DNA of 64,000 bases from Schaalia sp. 19OD2882 (GTDB taxonomy: Bacteria > Actinomycetota > Actinomycetes > Actinomycetales > Actinomycetaceae). The notes beneath the pieces are model-generated. The model saw only the letters and a program-made list of their open reading frames with translations, searched no databases and had not been told where the DNA came from. Each line of letters opens with the position of its first letter. Position 1 is the stretch's first letter. The translations under genes and the position numbers were made by a program. Positions 38,840 to 53,545 of this stretch are shown here, in pieces. The DNA is taken from the NCBI RefSeq assembly GCF_018986735.1, contig NZ_CP065521.1, positions 1,364,001 to 1,428,000 of the forward strand. Reading direction: 5' to 3'.

Positions 38840-40021
38840 TCAGGTGGTCGGAGTGCCGGGCCACCAGGCCCGGAGGAGGTCGGCGAGGGCAGAAGTTGCC
38901 GGGGACAGCAGATCGTGGCCCCACGGGGTGGACCACAGGGCAGCGCCCGTGGCCACCAGGGCCGCCAGGGCAAGGACAACGAAAGCGCCGACCCGCACCC
39001 GCGGCCTGTACGTGGCGATGACGGCCGTGGCCGGCACCAGCAGGTCCTGGGCGCTCAAACGAGTGAAGAAGGAAGGGGCCATCGCTCCCCGCCCTCGGTC
39101 CAAGTAGTCCTGCAAGGAATGGCTCTCCCCCACGGTGACGATTGCCGTGGGGCGCGAGTGCGCGGCGACCAGGGTCGCGGCGTCCTCGGCGCTGCCGGAG
39201 ACCTCGATGACGTCATGTGCCAGCCCCATGCGTTCCAGACGCTCCAGACCAGGGGCGACACCGTCCCTGCCGGAGCGCACGATCAGCTGGGCACCGCAGC
39301 GAAGGATCTTCTCCGGCACCAGGTCCATGTCACCCACGACGACCGTCGGCTTCAGACCCGCCCGCCGCGCATGGGTGGCCCCACCTTCAACGGCGACCAC
39401 GACGGGATCGGAGTCCCGGATCCACGGTTTGAGATCCGTGAGTTGGGCGCGGGCCGAGGGCGAGTCGACGACGAGAAGGACGACTCGGTCCTTCACACTC
39501 ACGGACATCGTGGGAACACCCCGTCCCTCGAAGACGGTGTGCCCGTCCTGGGACAGGTAGTCGTCGATGGAGGCCGCGAAAGAGGCCACCTGGGTGCGGA
39601 TCATCCGGCTGGAGACCACCTCTGGGCTGTGTTCGGGATCTGCAGCGCCGTCTCCCCTGCTGGCGATCAGAACCCCGCCCGACCAGACCTCGTCGCCTCG
39701 GATCTCGACCTCGTCGCCTTCACGCAGACCCATGAGGTCTGCTCCCAGGTCGTCCACCAGCAGGATTCCGGCCTCGTGCAGGATGACCGGCCCGAGGACC
39801 GGATGCCGCCCGGTCGAGGACACCGCCGCATTGAGGACGGCAACCGGGCGCGCCTCGACGAGCGCTTCAGCGGCGGCCCGGTCCAGGTCCGGCTGGTCGA
39901 TGACGGCGATCTCTCCAGGTTCGAGTCGAGTGGCGACCCGGCGGGTCTTCTCGTCGACCCTCACCTTGCCGCGCAGGACCCCGTCCCCGCCCGCATCGGG
40001 CTTCGTCTCGTTGGCATTCAC
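38840..40021 (-). CDS. steA: SteA-like cytokinetic ring protein (thiamin pyrophosphokinase-like fold)
   Basis: This 393-aa protein has an N-terminal domain with GRHPVLGP and LLVDDLGADLM, and a central TPK-like domain with KPTVVVGDMDLVPEKIL near residues 252-268 and IVTVGESHSLQDYL near 318-331. A C-terminal membrane segment lies near 356-375, with a short tail. In Corynebacterium glutamicum, SteA and SteB cooperate in daughter cell separation. The GTG at 40021 overlaps the recN stop by 4 nt (GTGA). It is coupled with recN and followed by steB. Confidence 0.88.
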   Translation of the reverse strand: MNANETKPDAGGDGVLRGKVRVDEKTRRVATRLEPGEIAVIDQPDLDRAAAEALVEARPVAVLNAAVSSTGRHPVLGPVILHEAGILLVDDLGADLMGLREGDEVEIRGDEVWSGGVLIASRGDGAADPEHSPEVVSSRMIRTQVASFAASIDDYLSQDGHTVFEGRGVPTMSVSVKDRVVLLVVDSPSARAQLTDLKPWIRDSDPVVVAVEGGATHARRAGLKPTVVVGDMDLVPEKILRCGAQLIVRSGRDGVAPGLERLERMGLAHDVIEVSGSAEDAATLVAAHSRPTAIVTVGESHSLQDYLDRGRGAMAPSFFTRLSAQDLLVPATAVIATYRPRVRVGAFVVLALAALVATGAALWSTPWGHDLLSPATSALADLLRAWWPGTPTT

Positions 40022-41688
40022 CCTGCCGATTGTGGCACGGCCCCTGCCAGCAACTCGGCAGCGTGACGGCGCGCCGCCGGGGAGTCGGGATCCCCACCCA
40101 TCATTCGCGCGAGTTCGGCGACCCGATGGTTGCCCTCGACGGAACGCACTGTCGTGGTGCCGTCCGCCTTGTCGACGACGAGGTGTGTGTCGGCGAATGC
40201 GGCGACCTGCGCCAGGTGCGTGACGACGAGAACCTGTCGTCCTTGGGCAAGCCGTGCCAGGCGCGCTGCCACCTCTGTGGCCACTCGGCCGCCGATGCCG
40301 GCGTCCACCTCGTCGAAGACGTAGGTGCGAGCCTGTCCGTCCGAGCCGAGCACCACTTCGATGGCGAGCATCACCCGGGAGAGTTCGCCTCCCGACGCCC
40401 CCTGTCCAAGTGGCCTGGCGGGTGCGTTCGGGTGGGGTTGCAGGAGCATCCGGACCTCTTCCAGCCCGTGGGGCGTGGGTTTGGTGGGCTCCAGTTCGAC
40501 GGTGAAACGGGCGTCCGGCATCGACAGTCCCGCCAATTCGGCATCGATCCGCTGGCAGATCTCGCGTGCGAGGGCCGCCCGAGCCTTGGACAGTTCCGCT
40601 CCGATGGCCAGGACACGTCGTTGGTCCTCGGCGAGGCGCTCGCGAAGGGCCGCGGGATCCGATTCGGCTGCGGTGAGGTCGGCAAGTTCTGCCAGCGCCT
40701 CCCGGTTCCACGCGAGAAGCTCGGCCACGTCGCCGGCCCGCCCGTCCATGAGCTTGCGCAGTTGGGCGCGGCGCTCCTGAACGTGGCCCAAGCGTTCGGG
40801 ATCCGCGTCCAGACCTTCCAGGTGGTGCCGCATGTCCTCGGCGGCGGAGTCGAGGTCGAGGACGGCGGAGTTGAGGGCGGAGACCACCTCTTCCAGGGAA
40901 CGGTCGAATCGAGTGGCTCCACGCAGACCTTCGAGGGCGCGCCTGGCGAGGTCCAGAGCACCGTCGTCGTCCTCGTCTCCGGTCAGTTGCGCGAGTCCTT
41001 CGGCCGTGGCGGCACGCAGGTCCTGGATGTTGGTCAGACGCTCGGCCTCATCGCGCAGGTCTTCCTCCTCCCCCTCCTTCGGGTCGAGGGCGGCGATCGC
41101 GTCGGTGACTTCCCGCAGGTGTCGCACCCGTTCCTGGCGTGCGTCGGCGTCCTGTTCGAGGGCGTCGAGTCGCCTCTTCGACGCCACGGCGTCGGACCAT
41201 GCGGCCGCGTAGTCGGCGCGCAGTTCCGAGTGGGCTGCTCCTCCGAATGCGTCCAGCGTCTCGCGTTGGACCTGCGTGGAGGCCAAGCGCAATTGGTCGG
41301 ACTGTCCGTGGATCGTCACCAGTGAGCCAATGAGGTCTCCCAGGACCGAGGCCGGTACGGCCCTGCCGCCCACATGCGCCCGGGAGCGTCCTTGTCCTTG
41401 GACTGTGCGCGAGACGACCACTTCACCGTCCTCGACCACACCGCCGAGGTCCTCCACACGCGCCGCCAGGTCCGCGGTCGCATCCACCACTCCGTCGACA
41501 CTGGCGCGGCTTGCCCCGCGACGCACCCATCCGGGGTCGGCTCGTCCTCCGAGCAGCAATTTGAGTGAGGTGAGCACCATAGTCTTGCCGGCGCCGGTCT
41601 CACCGGTCAGGACAGTCAGGCCCGGGCCGAATTCCAAGGATGCGGATTCGATGACTCCGAGTCCGGATATGTCGATGGAGTGAATCAT
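40018..41688 (-). CDS. recN: DNA repair protein RecN
   Basis: This 556-aa SMC-like ATPase has Walker A TGETGAGKTM near residues 29-38, long coiled-coil regions (about 165-360), the signature LGQGASGGELSRVMLAIEVVL near 445-465, Walker B TYVFDEVDAGIGG near 473-485 and an LVVTHLAQVAAFA H-loop near 506. It acts in double-strand break repair. The ATG overlaps the nadK stop (ATGA) and the stop overlaps the steA GTG. I found no close LexA box; arms CGAAC/GTTCG at 42505-42524 have a 10-nt gap and are not a canonical site. Confidence 0.95.
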   Translation of the reverse strand: MIHSIDISGLGVIESASLEFGPGLTVLTGETGAGKTMVLTSLKLLLGGRADPGWVRRGASRASVDGVVDATADLAARVEDLGGVVEDGEVVVSRTVQGQGRSRAHVGGRAVPASVLGDLIGSLVTIHGQSDQLRLASTQVQRETLDAFGGAAHSELRADYAAAWSDAVASKRRLDALEQDADARQERVRHLREVTDAIAALDPKEGEEEDLRDEAERLTNIQDLRAATAEGLAQLTGDEDDDGALDLARRALEGLRGATRFDRSLEEVVSALNSAVLDLDSAAEDMRHHLEGLDADPERLGHVQERRAQLRKLMDGRAGDVAELLAWNREALAELADLTAAESDPAALRERLAEDQRRVLAIGAELSKARAALAREICQRIDAELAGLSMPDARFTVELEPTKPTPHGLEEVRMLLQPHPNAPARPLGQGASGGELSRVMLAIEVVLGSDGQARTYVFDEVDAGIGGRVATEVAARLARLAQGRQVLVVTHLAQVAAFADTHLVVDKADGTTTVRSVEGNHRVAELARMMGGDPDSPAARRHAAELLAGAVPQSAG

Positions 41689-42536
41689 GACGGGCGCCTC
41701 GCGTCCCCGGCCCGCCATCCACGCACCGGAAGGTGGAACTTGTGCACCAGTCGAGTGGAGAAGGGGGTCTCGTCCAGTCGGACCAGGTGCGCCGGGTGGG
41801 TCCCGACGGTCGCGACGACTCGCGAACCGGCGGGCGTCCTGGTCGCCCGAAGGCCGTCGCACCACACTTCGGGCGCCACCCACGTGTCCTCCAGGACCTC
41901 GACCTCGATGCGGGAGGAGGGTCCGACCACGAGGGGGCGGGTGAACAGGCCATGCGCTGCCAGGGGGGCGATGAGCACGGCTTCCGTGTCCGGCCAGACC
42001 ACGGGTCCCCCGGCACTGAAGGAGTACGCGGTCGAACCTGTCGGAGTCGCCAGGATCATTCCGTCGGCGCCATAGGTCGACACCGCCTGTCCGTCGATGC
42101 CCAGCAGCATGTGGACGGGGTGGGCCACATCAGTGTGGATGAGCACTGCTTCGTTGAGGGCCCAGTCGTGGACCACCGAGCCGTCGGGAAGGTGGATGTC
42201 CACGTCCAGGGTCATGCGTTCGTCGACGGTGAACTCGCCCTTGGCGATCCGACGCGCAATGTCGGGGATGCCGTTGTCCGGGTCTTCGGCCAGGAATCCC
42301 ATGTGACCGAGATTCACGCCGAGGACGGGAGCGGCCGAGCGTCTCGCAAGTGCCACGGCGGCAAGCATCGTCCCGTCACCACCCAGGGCGAGGACGACGT
42401 CGATGGTGGAGTCGTGTGTCTGGTCGACGACTCTCACGCCACACGCTTCGAGTTCGCGTCGAGCGATGAGTGCCGGCTCGTGGGTGTCAGGACGCTTCTC
42501 GTGTCGAACAAGCATGACCGTTCGTGTCATGCGCAC
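41685..42536 (-). CDS. nadK: NAD kinase
   Basis: This 283-aa kinase makes NADP from NAD. It has the GGDGTMLAAV motif near residues 52-61, GHMGFLAE near 77-84, the NE motif in WALNEAVLIH near 125-134 and TPTGSTAYSFSAGGPVV near 164-180. GTG 42536 lies directly after the tlyA stop; ATG 42530 is also possible. The position between tlyA and recN is the conserved actinobacterial order. Confidence 0.95.
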   Translation of the reverse strand: MRMTRTVMLVRHEKRPDTHEPALIARRELEACGVRVVDQTHDSTIDVVLALGGDGTMLAAVALARRSAAPVLGVNLGHMGFLAEDPDNGIPDIARRIAKGEFTVDERMTLDVDIHLPDGSVVHDWALNEAVLIHTDVAHPVHMLLGIDGQAVSTYGADGMILATPTGSTAYSFSAGGPVVWPDTEAVLIAPLAAHGLFTRPLVVGPSSRIEVEVLEDTWVAPEVWCDGLRATRTPAGSRVVATVGTHPAHLVRLDETPFSTRLVHKFHLPVRGWRAGDARRPS

Positions 42537-43364
42537 TCACATCCCTTCTCCGGCGGGACCGCGCTCGACGGCGTCGAGGATGCGGCTGTGCAGGTCGGTG
42601 TCGATGATGGCGCGCGGATGGTCCGCCCGCATGTGGAGGAAGTATTCGACATTGCCGGCGGGACCGGGAAGCGGCGAAGCTTCCACGGCGGCGATCGCCA
42701 GTCCCAGGTCCATGGCGCGCCGCGCGACGACCTCAACGGTCTCCACGTGCTGTGCCGGGTCGCGGACCACTCCCCCGTGGCCCAGCCGCTCCTTGCCGAT
42801 CTCGAACTGGGGTTTGACCATGAGGAGGAAGTCGGCCTGCGGCGCGGCCACTGCGACCAGGGCCGGCAGGACCAATGTCAAGGAGATGAACGAGAGATCT
42901 CCGACGACCAATTCGGGTGGAGGTTCGATGTCCCCCGCGCGCAGGGTGCGCACATTGGTCCGGTCACGCACTTCGACCCTCGGGTCGCTCTGCAGCCGCC
43001 ACGCCAACTGGCCGTAGCCGACATCCGCAGCAACGACATGGGCGGCGCCCCTTCGCAGGAGCACATCGGTGAAACCTCCGGTTGACGCGCCCGCGTCCAG
43101 GCAGCGACGCCCACACACCTCGGGGGCGGATTCGCCCAAGGCGTCCAGGGCTCCGGCAAGCTTGTGGGCGCCACGAGAAACGTAGTCGACCTGGTCTGCC
43201 TCGCGCAGGACGATGGCTTGGGCGGGGTCCATCTGGCGTGCGGGTTTGAGCACCTGTTCACCGTCGAGGAGCACCCGCCCGGAGGAGACGAGCTCCTGCG
43301 CGTGGGTGCGCGATCGTGCAAGGCCGCGCCTGACCAGTTCGGAGTCGATTCGTCGGAGTCTCAC
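42537..43364 (-). CDS. tlyA: TlyA family 2'-O-methyltransferase (rRNA)
   Basis: This 275-aa protein has an N-terminal S4 RNA-binding domain (residues 4-60, LARSRTHAQELVSSGRVLLDG near 15-35). A Rossmann methyltransferase domain follows, with SAM motif CLDAGASTGGFTDVLL near 88-103 and catalytic KPQFE near 184-188. TlyA methylates 16S C1409 and 23S C1920 (E. coli numbering) and sets capreomycin sensitivity in mycobacteria. GTG 43364 starts 1 nt after the stop of the 55-aa gene. Confidence 0.94.
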   Translation of the reverse strand: MRLRRIDSELVRRGLARSRTHAQELVSSGRVLLDGEQVLKPARQMDPAQAIVLREADQVDYVSRGAHKLAGALDALGESAPEVCGRRCLDAGASTGGFTDVLLRRGAAHVVAADVGYGQLAWRLQSDPRVEVRDRTNVRTLRAGDIEPPPELVVGDLSFISLTLVLPALVAVAAPQADFLLMVKPQFEIGKERLGHGGVVRDPAQHVETVEVVARRAMDLGLAIAAVEASPLPGPAGNVEYFLHMRADHPRAIIDTDLHSRILDAVERGPAGEGM

Positions 43365-43365
43365 G

Positions 43366-43533
43366 TCAGTTCTCCGGCGTGACCAAACACGCCCGGAGGT
43401 TCTCCTCCAAGTGGGCGAGAATGCGCAGCTGAGCTTCGACGTCCAGGTCCTCGATTCCCATGAGCGCGGCCTCGACGTCCGGCGGAGCCACGACCCCGTT
43501 GGACGTCGAGGCGCCGGGCACAGGTGCGCTCAC
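43366..43533 (-). CDS. 55-aa small protein coupled to the HAD fusion and tlyA
   Basis: This frame runs from GTG 43533 to TGA 43366. Its GTG overlaps the stop of the HAD fusion gene (GTGA) and its stop is 1 nt before the tlyA start. The protein begins [13 protein letters not shown] and ends in an amphipathic helix-like half ([18 protein letters not shown] near residues 33-50). In M. tuberculosis a gene of about this size (Rv1693, from memory) occupies the same position between Rv1692 and tlyA, which supports a real gene. Its function is unknown. Confidence 0.75.
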
Positions 43534-46463
43534 TTGGTGGCCTTCGAGGACTCACCGGCGCCGTCGTGTCCGTCGGAGTCCTGATCCTCGGCTGCCTCGT
43601 CCGAGGGTGCCGATGCGTCGTCTTCGGCCAGATCCTCGGTCGACCGCAGGAGCTCCTCAAGATCTTCTTCTCCGGGCAGGAAGGTCACGACCTCGTCGCC
43701 GGCATCGGGCAGTGCATCGGCCTCGGCGAACAGCTCCTCGACAGGGCTCTGCGCCGTCTCGTCCTGCGAGGGCTCTTCGACGGGTTCGGGAGCTTCGACG
43801 ATCCCCGCAGGATCGTCGTTGTCGACGACGCGCACCTGGGGGCAGCGCACGTCGACGCCTTCGCCGCCTGCCTCCCAGGAGGCGGCTGCCAAGGCCCGAT
43901 AGGAGTCGAGGGTGACGGTCACACCCTCTTGCCCGGCCACGTCGAAGAGGTCCACGTCATCCAGGGTCAGTGTCCCGTCACGCAGCACGCGGGCGACTTG
44001 GGAGAGCCCGCAGGTCCATGTGCCGTCCTTGTGGTGTTTGGGCCGAGGATGCTCCTGGACGAGGCCGCGCATGTCCAGGGCCAGGTAGGTGGGCCGCTGT
44101 CCGCGCGGGGCGAGGATGATGTCCCGGGCTCCGTGGACGCCGGTCAGCACGTGCAGAGCCGGGATTCCGGCGGCCACGGCTCCCTTGATGTCGGTTTCGA
44201 GGCGATCGCCCACCGCCAGCGGGTTCGTGCCGTGGACCAGTGCGGCGCCGCGCAGGTAGATTCCCGGCTCCGGCTTCCCGGCGGCAATGGGGCGCACCCC
44301 TGTGGCGTGCTGGAGCGCACGCACCAAGGCGCCGTTGCCGAGCGCCTGTCCACGTTCGACAGGCAGGGAGGCATCAAGGTTCGTCGCGAAGAATGTGGCA
44401 CCGCGTTCGATGGCGAAGGCTGCCTCGTTCAGACGCTCCCAGGTCAATGTCTTGTCCAGCCCCTGCACGACGGCAGCCGGTTCGTCGTCGGCGGAGTCCA
44501 CCAGGACGTAGCCTGCCTCCTTCACGGGCGTGGAGAGTCCGTCGGAGCCGATGACCAGGACCTTCGCACCCTCCTCCAGGTGCTCGGCCATGAGAGCCAG
44601 GACGTCCATGGACGATGTCATGACCATTCCGGGTTCGGCCGGGTGTCCCAGTTCCGCCAGGTGTGCGGCAACGTCAGTAGCCGTGCGTGAGGCGTTGTTG
44701 GTGACGAAGGCGGTCTTCATTCCGGCTTCGCGCGCGGCGACGACTCCTTCGGCGGCGTGGTCGATCGGCTCGGATCCGGCGTAGGCGGTACCGTCCAGGT
44801 CGATGAGTGCGCAGTCGTAGGTGGCGGCCAGGGTGGTGTCCTCGCAGCCCTTGAGGTCAGATCCCTTGCGGTCGACGTCAGCGTCCGCGAAGAGAGCGAC
44901 ATCGACGATCTCGGTGATCTCTTCTTCTTCCGGCATGTCGGCTTCGACCTCGTCCGCCTCTGCGTCTCGACCGAGTTCGCGCAGTCGGTCTGCTTTGACC
45001 GACATGAGGCGACGGATGAGTTCGGTGTCGACGTCCTCGGGCAGCGCGGCCAAGGCGTCGTCGACGAGGACGAGGCCCACTTCGCTGAGTCCAAGGTCAG
45101 CGCGTGCGCCGGAGGAGACGAGGACGAGCTCCACCTGTTCGGAAAGCTCCATGCCTCGGGTCTCAGTTGCGTCGATGATTTCCACGGCCTTCTCGGGGCG
45201 GCCGAGGGCTCGTTCGATGTCGGCCTCGACGGCGCGCAGGGAGTCGTCGCCTCGCATGCGGCGCACGGCGCGCACCTCACGCAGCGCTTCCTCGTATCGG
45301 CCGGAGGCGTAGGCGGTCAGGGCCGCTGCTTCGCGGACGGAGTCGATCCGGCCGGCTCGCGCGGCCGCTGCGGTCGCGTGGCGGTGGGCCAGCTCGGCGT
45401 CGAGGTCGATGAGCTGGCCGGCCATGACCAAGTGGCGTGCCACGATGTCACGGTTCGGACCTGAGAGGCTGTCAAGAGTGCGCAGAGCGTCGGCATCGAG
45501 CTCGTCGGCCGAGACGCCGGCAGGGATCATCGGCTCGTCGGCATTCGGCGAGTCGTAGGCCTCGGTACTGGTCCACGGCTTCTCGGTGGTCTGCCCCGAA
45601 CGGGGCCCACGCTCCTCCCGTTTTGGTCCACGCGAGTCGCGGTCGAAACGATGGGGTCCACCTTGGCCCCGGTCCTGGTGGTCGCGCCTGGGGCTGCGGT
45701 CATCCCGCTCGAAACGACGGGGCCCGCGGTCATCGCGATCAAAACGACGCGGGCCACGGTCCCCACGATCCTGGAAGTCCCGACGCGGCCCACGATCATC
45801 CCGCTCGAAACGGTGAGGCCCACGATCATCACGATCAAAACGACGCGGGCCACGGTCCCCACGATCCTGGAAGTCCCGACGCGGCCCACGATCATCCCGC
45901 TCGAAACGACGGGGGCCACGATCGTCCCGATCGAAACGGCGCTCCTGACGCTCTCCACGATCCTGGAAGTCGCGCCTGGGGCCGCGGTCATCACGCTCGA
46001 AACGACGGGGGCCACGATCGTCCCGATCAAAACGACGGGGGCCACGGTCCCCACGATCCTGGAAGTCCCGACGCGGCCCACGATCATCCCGCTCGAAACG
46101 ACGGGGGCCACGATCGTCCCGATCGAAACGGCGCTCCTGACGCTCTCCACGATCCTGGAAGTCCCGACGCCGTCCACGATCATCCCGCTCGAAACGACGC
46201 GCTCCGCCCTCGCCACGGTCATGGAAGTCACGCCTGGGCCCACGATCGTCCCGGTCGAAACGGCGCTCCTGACGCTCTCCACGATCCTGGAAGTCGCGAC
46301 GCCGTCCACGGTCATCCCGGTCGAAGCGACGCTCTCCGCGATCCCCCGGTCCGGAGTCGGGCCACGAGCGATCAGTCGCATCTCGCCACTGTCGGCGCTG
46401 GAATCCACCACGCCCCTCGTGCGAACGCCCGTCTGCGGAGCGTCCGTGCTGGTCCTTGCTCAT
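43530..46463 (-). CDS. HAD-IIA phosphatase fused to a helical domain and a long Arg/Asp-rich repeat domain
   Basis: This 977-aa protein has four parts. Residues about 1-295 are mixed-charge repeats rich in Arg, Asp and Gly, built from short units such as [20 protein letters not shown] and RRDFQDRG. Residues about 310-530 are helical and TPR-like ([20 protein letters not shown]). A HAD-IIA domain follows, with motif [13 protein letters not shown] near 551-562, [17 protein letters not shown] and [11 protein letters not shown]. The last about 160 residues are acidic. The HAD part corresponds to mycobacterial Rv1692 (glycerol-3-phosphate phosphatase) and the helical part to Rv1691 by position. 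GAGGATGACACC precedes the ATG. It is the first gene after the rRNA operon on this strand. Confidence 0.88.
45592..46425. repeat. In-frame tandem repeats encoding the Arg/Asp-rich domain
   Basis: Degenerate units of 24-33 bp recur through the 5' part of the HAD fusion gene, with higher-order periods near 96 and 192 bp. A 125-bp stretch is repeated exactly at 45847-45971 and 46039-46163, offset by 192 bp (64 codons). All repeats keep the reading frame, so copy number can change without frameshift. Confidence 0.9.
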
Positions 46464-46682
46464 GGTGTCATCCTCTATTCCTGCGCACCTGCGCTTGTCA
46501 TACTGAGCCCCGTTGTCCTGGGGCCTCGGGATCGATGTCCCGGCGATCTTCGTTCAGATCCTACCGCGCGTCGACTCGGACTTGAGCCACGCAAGCGTCC
46601 CTTGTGGCGTTCGGCATGTTCCTGGCGGCTGGGTGTTTGTTCGTCTGTACCCGCCGTGGTGTTGTTGTGTGGGTGTGGTTGT
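46464..46682. other. Intergenic region between HAD fusion gene and rRNA operon terminator
   Basis: This region holds the 5' leader of the HAD fusion gene (GAGGATGACACC directly before its ATG) and the tail beyond the rRNA terminator. I see no further gene or clear -35/-10 pair in it. Confidence 0.5.
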
Positions 46683-46712
46683 GGGGGCCCGGAGCGTGTG
46701 CTCTGGGCCCCC
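46683..46712 (-). terminator. Terminator of the rRNA operon
   Basis: GGGGGCCC and GGGCCCCC arms plus GAGC/GCTC form a 13-bp stem with one G-T wobble and a 4-nt loop, just beyond the 3' end of 5S rRNA. There is no long U-tract in the minus-strand transcript. Confidence 0.75.
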
Positions 46713-46728
46713 ATGTTGGGTGGTTGTG

Positions 46729-46847
46729 TTGCGGTGGTGTCCTACTCTCCCACATCCTGTCGGGTGCAGTACCATCGGCGCTGTGGGGCTTAGCTTCCGG
46801 GTTCGGAATGGGTGCCGGGCGTTTCCCCCACGCCATGACCGCCGCAA
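46729..46847 (-). rRNA. rrf: 5S ribosomal RNA
   Basis: Read on the minus strand, it has the conserved GAAACGCCCGG, CATTCCGAACCCGGAAGCTAAG-type core and the TGTGGGAGAGTAGG segment. The ends pair as TTGCGGCGG with CCACCGCAA. Length is about 119 nt. Ends are estimated to within a few nt. Confidence 0.95.
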
Positions 46848-46956
46848 TGGTGTCAACCGTGTTCCACGCCCCCTGGTGTTGGGGGGTGTGGGTTGGTCGT
46901 GGTTTGTACAGTGGTTGTGAGCGGTGTTGTCCCGTGTCCCCCCACCGGGGTGGGGG
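46848..46956 (-). other. 23S-5S intergenic spacer
   Basis: It holds two G/C-rich inverted repeats (around CACGCCCCC/GGGGGGTGTG and CCCCACC/GGTGGGG), probably processing stems. No tRNA is visible. Confidence 0.6.
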
Positions 46957-51893
<4,937 letters not shown>

Positions 51894-52282: not shown

Positions 52283-53545
52283 TCAGACGAGCTCGACGAC
52301 GAACAAGGTGCGGCGTCCCTTTCGCACCAGTGCCAGTGAGCCGGCCAGAGCATCGGCCGCCCCGATCGGAGCATCCTCGTCGGTCACCTTGACATTGTTC
52401 AGGTAGGCCCCGCCGGACGCCACCGTGCGACGGGCGGCCCCGCGTCCCTTCTCGATCCCCGCATCGACCAAGGCGTCGACCACGGTTCCCTCCCCCAGCC
52501 TCACCGTGGCGCGGGGAAGATCAGCGACCGCCGCGGTCAGCGTGGCCTCGTCCAGCGCGCGCAAGTCACCGGAGCCCCACAGGGCCTGGGTCGCGGCCAA
52601 AACCCGTGAGAGCTGATCGGGTCCGTGGACCATGCGAGTCATCTCGGCCGCCAGAGCCTTCTGGGCGGCGCGCGCAAAGGGTCGCTCGGCGACCTCGACC
52701 TCAAGCTGTCCGATCTGCTCACGAGAAAGGAAGGTGAAGATCTTGAGGAAACGTACGACGTCCTCGTCCGCCACCTGCAGCCAGAACTGGTAGAAGGCGT
52801 AGGGGCTGAACATATCGGGATCCAGCCAGATCGCCCCGCCTTCGGACTTGCCGAACTTCGTGCCATCGGCCTTGGTGATGATCGGCGTGGTCATCACATG
52901 GGTGGAGGCGCCCTCGACCTTGCGGATCAGGTCCACGCCGCCGATCATGTTGCCCCACTGGTCGTTGCCGCCGGTTTCCAGCGTGCAGCCGTGACGGCGG
53001 AAGAGCTCCAGGTAGTCATTGGCCTGCAGCACCTGGTAGGAGAACTCCGTGTACGAGATCCCCTCGTCCGACGCCAGGCGCCGCGCGACGATGTCCTTGG
53101 CCAACATGGTGCCGATGCGGAAGTGTTTGCCGACTCCGCGCAGCAAGTCGATGGCGCTCATCTGGCTGGTCCAGTCCAGGTTGTTCACCATGACGGCGGC
53201 ATTGTCGCCCTCGAAGGACAGGAAGTGCGAGATCTGTTCGCGCAGGCGCTCGGTCCACCCCGCCACGACCTCGGTGGGCTGCAGTTGACGTTCGCCTGAC
53301 TGACGCGGGTCACCGATCTGGCCCGTGGCGCCGCCCACCAGCGCCAAGGGCCTGTGACCGGCCAGCTGCAAGTGGCGCATGACGAGCACCTGGACCAAGT
53401 GTCCGTGGTGCAGGGAGGGGGCTGTCGGGTCGAAGCCGCAATAGAAGGTGACCGGACCATTCGACAGGTGCTCACGCAAGGCATCGATGTCGGTGTGTTG
53501 GGCCAGGAGGCCGCGCCACTGGAGTTCGTCCAGGATGTCGGTCAC
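52283..53545 (-). CDS. tyrS: Tyrosyl-tRNA synthetase
   Basis: This 420-aa class I synthetase has the HIGH-type motif HHGHLVQVL near residues 47-55 and the KMSKS-type motif KFGKSEGGAIW near 229-239. A C-terminal S4-like RNA-binding domain starts near 345 (DALVDAGIEKGRGAARRTVASGGAYLNNVKV-type sequence). The GTG start at 53545 has AAGGAC about 7 nt upstream. A TAGACT (53609-53614) upstream is a possible -10. In mycobacteria tyrS (Rv1689) directly precedes the Rv1691-Rv1693 genes; here the rRNA operon lies between them. Confidence 0.96.
   Translation of the reverse strand: MTDILDELQWRGLLAQHTDIDALREHLSNGPVTFYCGFDPTAPSLHHGHLVQVLVMRHLQLAGHRPLALVGGATGQIGDPRQSGERQLQPTEVVAGWTERLREQISHFLSFEGDNAAVMVNNLDWTSQMSAIDLLRGVGKHFRIGTMLAKDIVARRLASDEGISYTEFSYQVLQANDYLELFRRHGCTLETGGNDQWGNMIGGVDLIRKVEGASTHVMTTPIITKADGTKFGKSEGGAIWLDPDMFSPYAFYQFWLQVADEDVVRFLKIFTFLSREQIGQLEVEVAERPFARAAQKALAAEMTRMVHGPDQLSRVLAATQALWGSGDLRALDEATLTAAVADLPRATVRLGEGTVVDALVDAGIEKGRGAARRTVASGGAYLNNVKVTDEDAPIGAADALAGSLALVRKGRRTLFVVELV

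Follow-up and report, generated by a model that had tools for sequence, protein, structure and literature searches.

What does a protein that joins an arginine/aspartate-rich repeat tract to a tetratricopeptide repeat (TPR) domain and a HAD-IIA phosphatase domain do when its gene lies directly behind a ribosomal RNA (rRNA) operon? This question is raised by a gene of Schaalia sp. 19OD2882, located in a stretch of 64,000 nt (contig NZ_CP065521.1, positions 1,364,001 to 1,428,000; the whole stretch is referred to here as the window, and coordinates are those of the window) from a genome of 2.56 Mb in one contig, the closest named relatives of which are Schaalia and Actinomyces. A first-pass annotation had described, for the interval 45592-46463, Arg/Asp repeats fused in one frame to a TPR-like region and a HAD-IIA domain. 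The interval corresponds to residues 1-291 of a 977-aa open reading frame (ORF) on the minus strand, and a single frame of 977 codons (ATG at 46463, stop at 43530) joins the tract, the TPR domain and the HAD-IIA domain, which confirms the observation itself. The most valuable finding lies outside the coordinates first flagged and is the linkage of the whole TPR gene family to rRNA operons. We tentatively regard the gene as the Schaalia-type version of an old actinobacterial family, in which a TPR scaffold core with an Arg-rich disordered N-terminal tail is encoded beside an rRNA operon. Its parts are as follows.

43530..46463, minus strand: whole gene (Arg/Asp-rich tail, TPR domain and HAD-IIA domain), 977 aa, as an ORF
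45579..46349, minus strand: Arg/Asp/Gly mixed-charge tandem-repeat tract, residues 39-295; fraction of charged residues 0.64, net charge per residue (NCPR) +0.08, kappa 0.043
44829..45575, minus strand: TPR superhelix domain, residues 297-545
44064..44819, minus strand: HAD-IIA phosphatase domain, residues 549-800; D555, D557, T588, K730, D753 and D758 present
43533..44063, minus strand: post-HAD region, residues 801-977, with an acidic tail at its end, from the sequence

With a profile (A1) that contains the window sequence, the TPR gene was found in 188 of 197 genomes of the class, the window's own included. The window gene has a TPR core homologous to this profile and an rRNA operon directly upstream on the same strand. 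Among 47 further class loci from 45 genomes (taken from the matches listed, in genomes of one or few contigs and none of the window's own family), an rRNA gene ended upstream of the TPR homology, on the same strand and within 4.2 kb, in 45; the exceptions were L182, which was not linked, and L188, which runs off its contig. At L154 and L157 the rRNA lay 3.4-3.7 kb from the TPR homology, and at most of the others the chosen start lay 66-265 nt after the 5S gene. Outside the class, weak TPR matches were found in 33 genomes of at most 136 searched, and these relatives are remote (E 6e-7 to 5e-25 in the loci compared). Twenty of the 33 matches were fetched, of which 15 were linked to rRNA, three were not (counting as unlinked L237, the 5S gene of which lies just past the 4.2-kb limit) and two were undetermined; at ten of the outside loci the 5S gene lay 119-321 nt ahead of the TPR homology and the tail was short and basic only. 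Behind 20 control rRNA operons, hand-picked from 14 of the same genomes, no TPR homologue was present in the ~2.2 kb that follow the 5S gene. Separately, at L249 16S-like pieces lie ~0.3 kb upstream of the TPR homologue and no match to 5S or 23S was found, which may reflect a split operon or an assembly artefact, and at eight loci in small genomes (family f25: L151, L155, L158-L160, L168, L177 and L180) the 23S blastn match came in two pieces, for which an insertion or a divergent helix is possible.

Two genomes of the same genus (G229 and G170) carry a second rRNA operon with a second TPR gene behind it, operon and gene having been duplicated as one unit, and both TPR frames stayed open. The unit in G229 is 6.77 kb long and 99.1% identical between copies; it begins in the interval that separates tyrS from 16S and ends with the stop codon of the TPR gene. 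One of its copies has tyrS and HAD-tlyA at its flanks, and the second copy has neither. The unit in G170 (6.68 kb, 99.2%) begins in the corresponding interval and ends ~20 nt before the TPR stop; tyrS adjoins one of its copies and HAD-tlyA adjoins the second. Of the loci of these two genomes (L251-L254), those of G170 have tyrS and HAD-tlyA on opposite strands by different copies, as after an inversion between units, and at L191 (G149, same genus, complete genome) the chosen start lies 1384 nt from the 5S gene. Published statements are cited here from excerpts of the papers; one such excerpt places mycobacterial rrnB behind tyrS (PMC10218544), which fits the same ancestral site as the operon in the window. 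Narrow searches of the open-access literature returned no report of linkage of the TPR gene to rRNA operons and no described function for the tail-TPR protein.

The order along the minus strand of the window is tyrS, 16S-23S-5S, the 977-codon gene, tlyA, NAD kinase, recN and steA, and the rRNA operon and TlyA-family neighbour mentioned in the first-pass annotation are both there in the window annotation. The neighbouring features are given below.

52283..53545, minus strand: tyrS, upstream neighbour of the rRNA operon
50356..51891, minus strand: 16S rRNA
46958..50085, minus strand: 23S rRNA
46729..46846, minus strand: 5S rRNA of the upstream rRNA operon
46682..46713, minus strand: GC-rich stem-loop just past the 5S gene, without a U run, probably an rRNA terminator or a hairpin for processing; arms GGGGGCCC/GGGCCCCC
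42537..43364, minus strand: TlyA-family rRNA 2'-O-methyltransferase; TIGR00478 above cut-off, equivalog NF049952 below its own
41685..42536, minus strand: NAD kinase
40018..41883, minus strand: RecN (ORF start uncertain)

The host genome has three 5S genes, one of them at this locus. The start of the gene lies 265 nt past it, the stem-loop occupies 16-47 nt past it, and the spacer from the stem-loop to the gene measures 218 nt. A consensus promoter scan found no sigma-70-type site in 46380-46960. The 272-nt stretch from 5S to start (46464-46735, minus strand), which includes the post-5S stem-loop, folds more stably than its shuffles (z -3.6), and further small stem-loops lie within it near the start codon.

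The TPR domain is the conserved core of the family. No Pfam TPR model scored above cut-off for the window sequence; TPR_16 was matched by 15 of 19 aligned members, with E up to 1, and an AF2 model of the domain (pLDDT 88.7) resembles TPR structures in fold searches. A TPR profile searched against PDB sequences gave four matches (SRP72 and others), none better than E 0.3. The fold searches return generic TPR proteins and so do not point to a partner, and they leave room for families outside those that they list. Ten residues (R372, R377, E378, Y385, R402, D415, R418, E445, D456 and R485) were kept in at least 27 of 29 class sequences and in 10 of 10 outside sequences, all 39 being hand-picked; the presence of the first seven of these in all ten outside sequences supports true kinship with the class family.

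The Arg-rich N-terminal tail also belongs to this class-wide family, and the window gene has it in an Arg/Asp form. The earlier description of about 295 N-terminal residues as nearly all repeat units holds for residues 39-295; residues 1-38 contain no such units. The 257 residues of the tract comprise 90 R, 55 D, 32 G, 21 F, 18 P and 17 E (35% R, 21% D), i.e. 72 acidic versus 92 basic residues, and Tandem Repeats Finder reported periods of 30, 66, 96 and 288 nt between 45673 and 46334. When the stop-to-stop frames of 250 aa or more in the window (96 in all) were compared by their richest 250-aa stretch, this frame reached 58.4% R+D and the runner-up 33.6%, and a search of the tract against its own genome returned itself and one match with E 3.2. 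Over the tract, four of the six reading frames contain no stop codon, so an open frame alone is no evidence here. The repeat units themselves are more informative: the ratio of replacement to silent variation (N/S) was 0.123 for a 10-aa unit (14 copies) and 0.142 for an 8-aa unit (8 copies), with variation chiefly at codon position 3, so that per site the units vary about seven to eight times more at silent than at replacement positions. This bias is as expected of amino-acid constraint in the minus-strand frame; it comes from pairwise N/S counts that depend on one another, and homogenisation of the repeats may account for part of it. Several frames are open over the tract in the window and in relatives, and an antisense or alternative-frame gene was considered and set aside, with the codon-position-3 variation and the continuity with the TPR domain favouring the minus-strand frame.

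All 14 same-genus loci have an in-frame Arg-rich tail (20-34% R) continuous with TPR-HAD (five are cut by a contig edge and one has a run of N), which rules out an assembly join or frame error. The tract is thus neither absent nor out of frame in close relatives, and the concern that an assembly error had joined or collapsed two genes did not materialise. A database protein from this genome with an identical sequence (P0004, 631 aa) begins at residue 347, within the TPR domain; at least one database entry therefore lacks the tract as well as some of the TPR domain. More widely, 78 of the 80 named loci have 10% Arg or more in the sequence before the TPR domain; at L141 nothing lies upstream, and L065 (Schaalia suimastitidis) is the sole one with sequence ahead of the domain yet low Arg (8%). 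We infer the family labels used here (f1 Actinomycetaceae, f9 Mycobacterium and, via 95%-identical Streptomyces proteins, f21 Streptomyces). Tails of ~37-78 aa, Arg-rich and without a long Arg/Asp repeat, were found in the f9 loci; Streptomyces-type tails are Arg/Asp-rich (34-36% R and 26-28% D in three of four); f22 tails are Arg/Gly-rich and those of some small genomes, by eye, Arg/Ser-rich. Tail and spacer lengths depend on start codons chosen as ATG or GTG with a Shine-Dalgarno-like word, a rule that is wrong in some rows (the 12-aa tail of L196 is an example, and L197 had no start at all by this rule).

The charges of the tract are unusually well mixed, with a kappa (in our own implementation) of 0.043 versus 0.123 in shuffles. 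In 17 of 17 hand-picked R/D-rich tracts kappa was likewise below that of shuffles (at most 2 of 200 shuffles were lower) and NCPR was +0.06 to +0.11. Among these tracts, genera with unlike repeat units arrive at the same composition, and the unit differs by species (RGGFRRDDRR or RRSFNRDDRGD in relatives) while the composition is kept. When residues 1-295 were inspected no RGG motif was found within the window repeat, and the only one (residues 18-20) lies outside it. The tract is not an RGG/RG sequence, which has repeated RGG motifs; at 56% R+D with well-mixed charges, it has the make-up of an Arg-rich mixed-charge domain (R-MCD), i.e. mainly R and D.

Above-cut-off matches to Pfam Hydrolase_6 (PF13344) and Hydrolase_like (PF13242) define the HAD part, which falls short of the NCBIfam HAD-IIA cut-offs (TIGR01460, 92.7 of 100.15 bits; TIGR01457, 172.7 of 247.65). 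The columns of D555, D557, T588, K730, D753 and D758, which we take to be the catalytic motif residues, are aligned in 81 of 81 fused rows (the window included, with some genomes counted twice owing to two overlapping collections), and a degenerate pseudo-enzyme is thereby ruled out. The fused phosphatase probably keeps a reaction of its own, of the glycerol-3-phosphate class, tethered to the scaffold. A second HAD-IIA-like frame (32% identity) lies elsewhere in the genome (G000:C1:2173922-2174593). A TPR-HAD query matched 150 of 151 family genomes, with one continuous match over both parts in 50 of the 151 (match start no later than 13 and end at 437 or beyond, counted from listed ranges; one of the 50 has an internal TAA); in the remaining family genomes the best match was the HAD part or less. 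As one frame covers TPR and HAD in just 50 of 151 genomes, the fusion looks like a secondary, lineage-specific event, and the scope of the gene-level description made earlier needs correcting: the tail belongs to the TPR protein and extends far beyond Actinomycetaceae.

The anatomy of the gene, the silent-site bias of its tract, the near-universality of the TPR gene, its linkage, its co-duplication in two genomes and its in-frame fusion to a HAD domain with intact motifs are computed observations. Our preferred, still tentative reading of them, made at the level of sequence, is that the protein is a TPR scaffold that works where rRNA is made or where ribosome assembly begins. A partner protein, for example RNA polymerase (RNAP) or an assembly factor, would bind in the TPR groove, which carries invariant charged residues. 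The Arg-rich tail would contact nascent rRNA, ribosomal proteins or RNA-binding proteins weakly and multivalently, and the Arg/Asp version of the tail would behave as a mixed-charge domain that is soluble and self-cohesive. The place behind the rRNA operon would couple the dose of the protein to rRNA output, through copy number, terminator read-through or a promoter behind the terminator. The RNA- or ribosome-linked role raised in the first-pass annotation is strengthened, on genomic grounds, by the linkage within and outside the class and by the rRNA+TPR duplications. A bolder version would count the TPR gene of Actinomycetota as in effect a fourth gene of an rRNA operon, one that codes for a protein, predates the class and shares its dosage with rRNA. 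Its tail, which in several lineages takes the form of a bacterial Arg/Asp mixed-charge domain, would organise the making of rRNA or the assembly of ribosomes at that operon, possibly as a nucleolus-like assembly, and in Schaalia-type bacteria a phosphatase would have become tethered to it; as a whole we consider this distinctly doubtful.

Several observations weigh against our preferred reading. All 45 loci measured have a predicted stem-loop with 10 or more nested pairs in the 75 nt after 5S (of 50 loci with 5S, five were skipped, namely L145, L154, L157, L165 and L191; individual stem-loops are given without a shuffled control), and TATAAT or TACAAT occurs in two Streptomyces-type spacers, which makes independent transcription of the gene possible. 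The gap from structure to start was at most 60 nt in 26 of the 45, and in four of these (L148, L163, L164 and L183) the structure runs past the chosen start. Expression by pure read-through is not pressed in view of these stem-loops and -10-like hexamers; read-through, a promoter that overlaps the terminator and a short promoter behind it are each possible. The tail is highly variable, from ~37 to ~600 aa, being Arg/Gly or Arg/Ser in some families and short and basic outside the class, and its well-mixed charges speak against the tract binding RNA strongly by itself. A coding-like frame on the same strand, by a rough test of GC content at codon position 3, starts within ~150 nt of 5S behind four of the 20 control operons (L206, L209, L212 and L215; similar frames at two others, L205 and L213, extend into the 5S gene and are possibly spurious). 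A gene near 5S is therefore unremarkable per se; the recurrence of the TPR gene is what is remarkable. Among 13 other loci of the window's own family, only five are linked to rRNA, seven have none upstream and one is undetermined, and the seven keep the TPR domain with an Arg- or Lys-rich tail. Together with the unlinked class locus L182, these indicate that adjacency is not needed for function and could reflect the inertia of an old block.

Such inertia is the core of the rival that survives best, which we judge unlikely: the tyrS-rRNA-TPR-HAD-tlyA block is merely old, the TPR protein has an unrelated role (for example in envelope or lipid metabolism, as the HAD fusion would suggest) and the tail is a solubility or spacing linker. 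Besides the seven family loci that lack rRNA, it is favoured by the extent of the block and by the type of the fusion partner. In the window the block continues with HAD, tlyA, NAD kinase and recN; for M. tuberculosis, one listing groups Rv1691-Rv1692-Rv1693-tlyA-ppnK-recN (PMC3072309); and the G229 unit has tyrS, HAD and tlyA at its flanks. The fusion partner is of the HAD type, and Rv1692 is called a glycerol-3-phosphate phosphatase (PMC12722247). Against it, the rRNA linkage reaches relatives as remote as those outside the class, and the gene has been copied with the rRNA operon, in one copy without HAD and with both frames open. An improbable alternative is that the tail is an expanded tandem repeat with no selected function, a slippage product tolerated at a protein end. 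The 30/66/96-nt repeats and the shifts in length and unit sequence between species are what it would produce, but the low N/S between units (with the dependence of pairwise counts noted above), the shared composition reached from different units, the low kappa of all 17 hand-picked tracts and the lack of a comparable tract elsewhere in the genome stand against it. Finally, that the R/D tail drives phase separation with rRNA into a nucleolus-like body at rRNA operons would, by analogy, suit its Arg-rich, net positive mixed charge with regular Phe, the entry of R-MCDs into nuclear bodies (PMC9324279) and the rRNA-operon linkage, but is very improbable given that an alternating R/D peptide does not phase-separate alone (PMC9324279) and that orthologues with tails of ~37-110 aa would be poor condensers. 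Given that peptide result, the well-mixed charges and the absence of RGG from the repeat, the earlier suggestion that such tracts often bind RNA or drive condensates is too strong here.

If the linkage of the scaffold gene to rRNA operons is functional, a near-universal, uncharacterised actinobacterial protein is tied physically, and perhaps transcriptionally, to rRNA genes, which would point to an unknown step of rRNA synthesis or ribosome assembly in a phylum that contains major antibiotic producers and pathogens. The natural variants, which span short basic tails to Arg/Asp repeats of 200-400 residues, would be material for comparative tests.

Among known systems, the probable mycobacterial counterpart of the window gene is Rv1691/MSMEG_3754, a TPR protein (PMC7092591) whose gene lies just before Rv1692, tlyA, ppnK and recN (PMC3072309), the assignment being by gene order. 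MSMEG_3754 is among the high-confidence proteins (214 of 275) of an anti-RNAP pull-down from nuclease-treated lysate and brought down no DNA (PMC7092591), and it is also listed in a ClpC1 interactome table (PMC10433963). As evidence for a role at rRNA synthesis this is weakened by formaldehyde crosslinking and the size of the set in that pull-down (275 proteins), and by the orthology of MSMEG_3754 with Rv1691 being that of PMC7092591 itself, to which the window gene is likened by gene order. The Mycobacterium-like f9 loci differ from the window gene in having neither the HAD fusion nor the long Arg/Asp repeat. With Rv1692-type HAD-IIA proteins the window protein shares, at the level of family, the domain and its catalytic-motif residues; its HAD differs in being fused behind a tail and TPR domain and in scoring below the curated TIGR01460 and TIGR01457 cut-offs. 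RGG/RG tails resemble the tract in being rich in Arg and Gly and probably disordered, and the tails of Schaalia relatives and of the Streptomyces type do contain RGG units, whereas the window repeat has none and balances its basic residues with acidic ones. The closest likeness in make-up is to the eukaryotic R-MCDs of SNRNP70 and NELFE, which are mainly R and D, well mixed and slightly net positive (PMC9324279), although the window tract is bacterial, contains Gly, Phe and Pro and sits on a TPR scaffold, with no homology implied. An alternating R/D domain goes to speckles and not to the nucleolus, and a more positive net charge enhances entry of R-MCDs into nuclear bodies (PMC9324279), beside which the NCPR of +0.08 of the window tract may be set; if the proposed role is true, the tail would be a bacterial counterpart of these eukaryotic mixed-charge domains.

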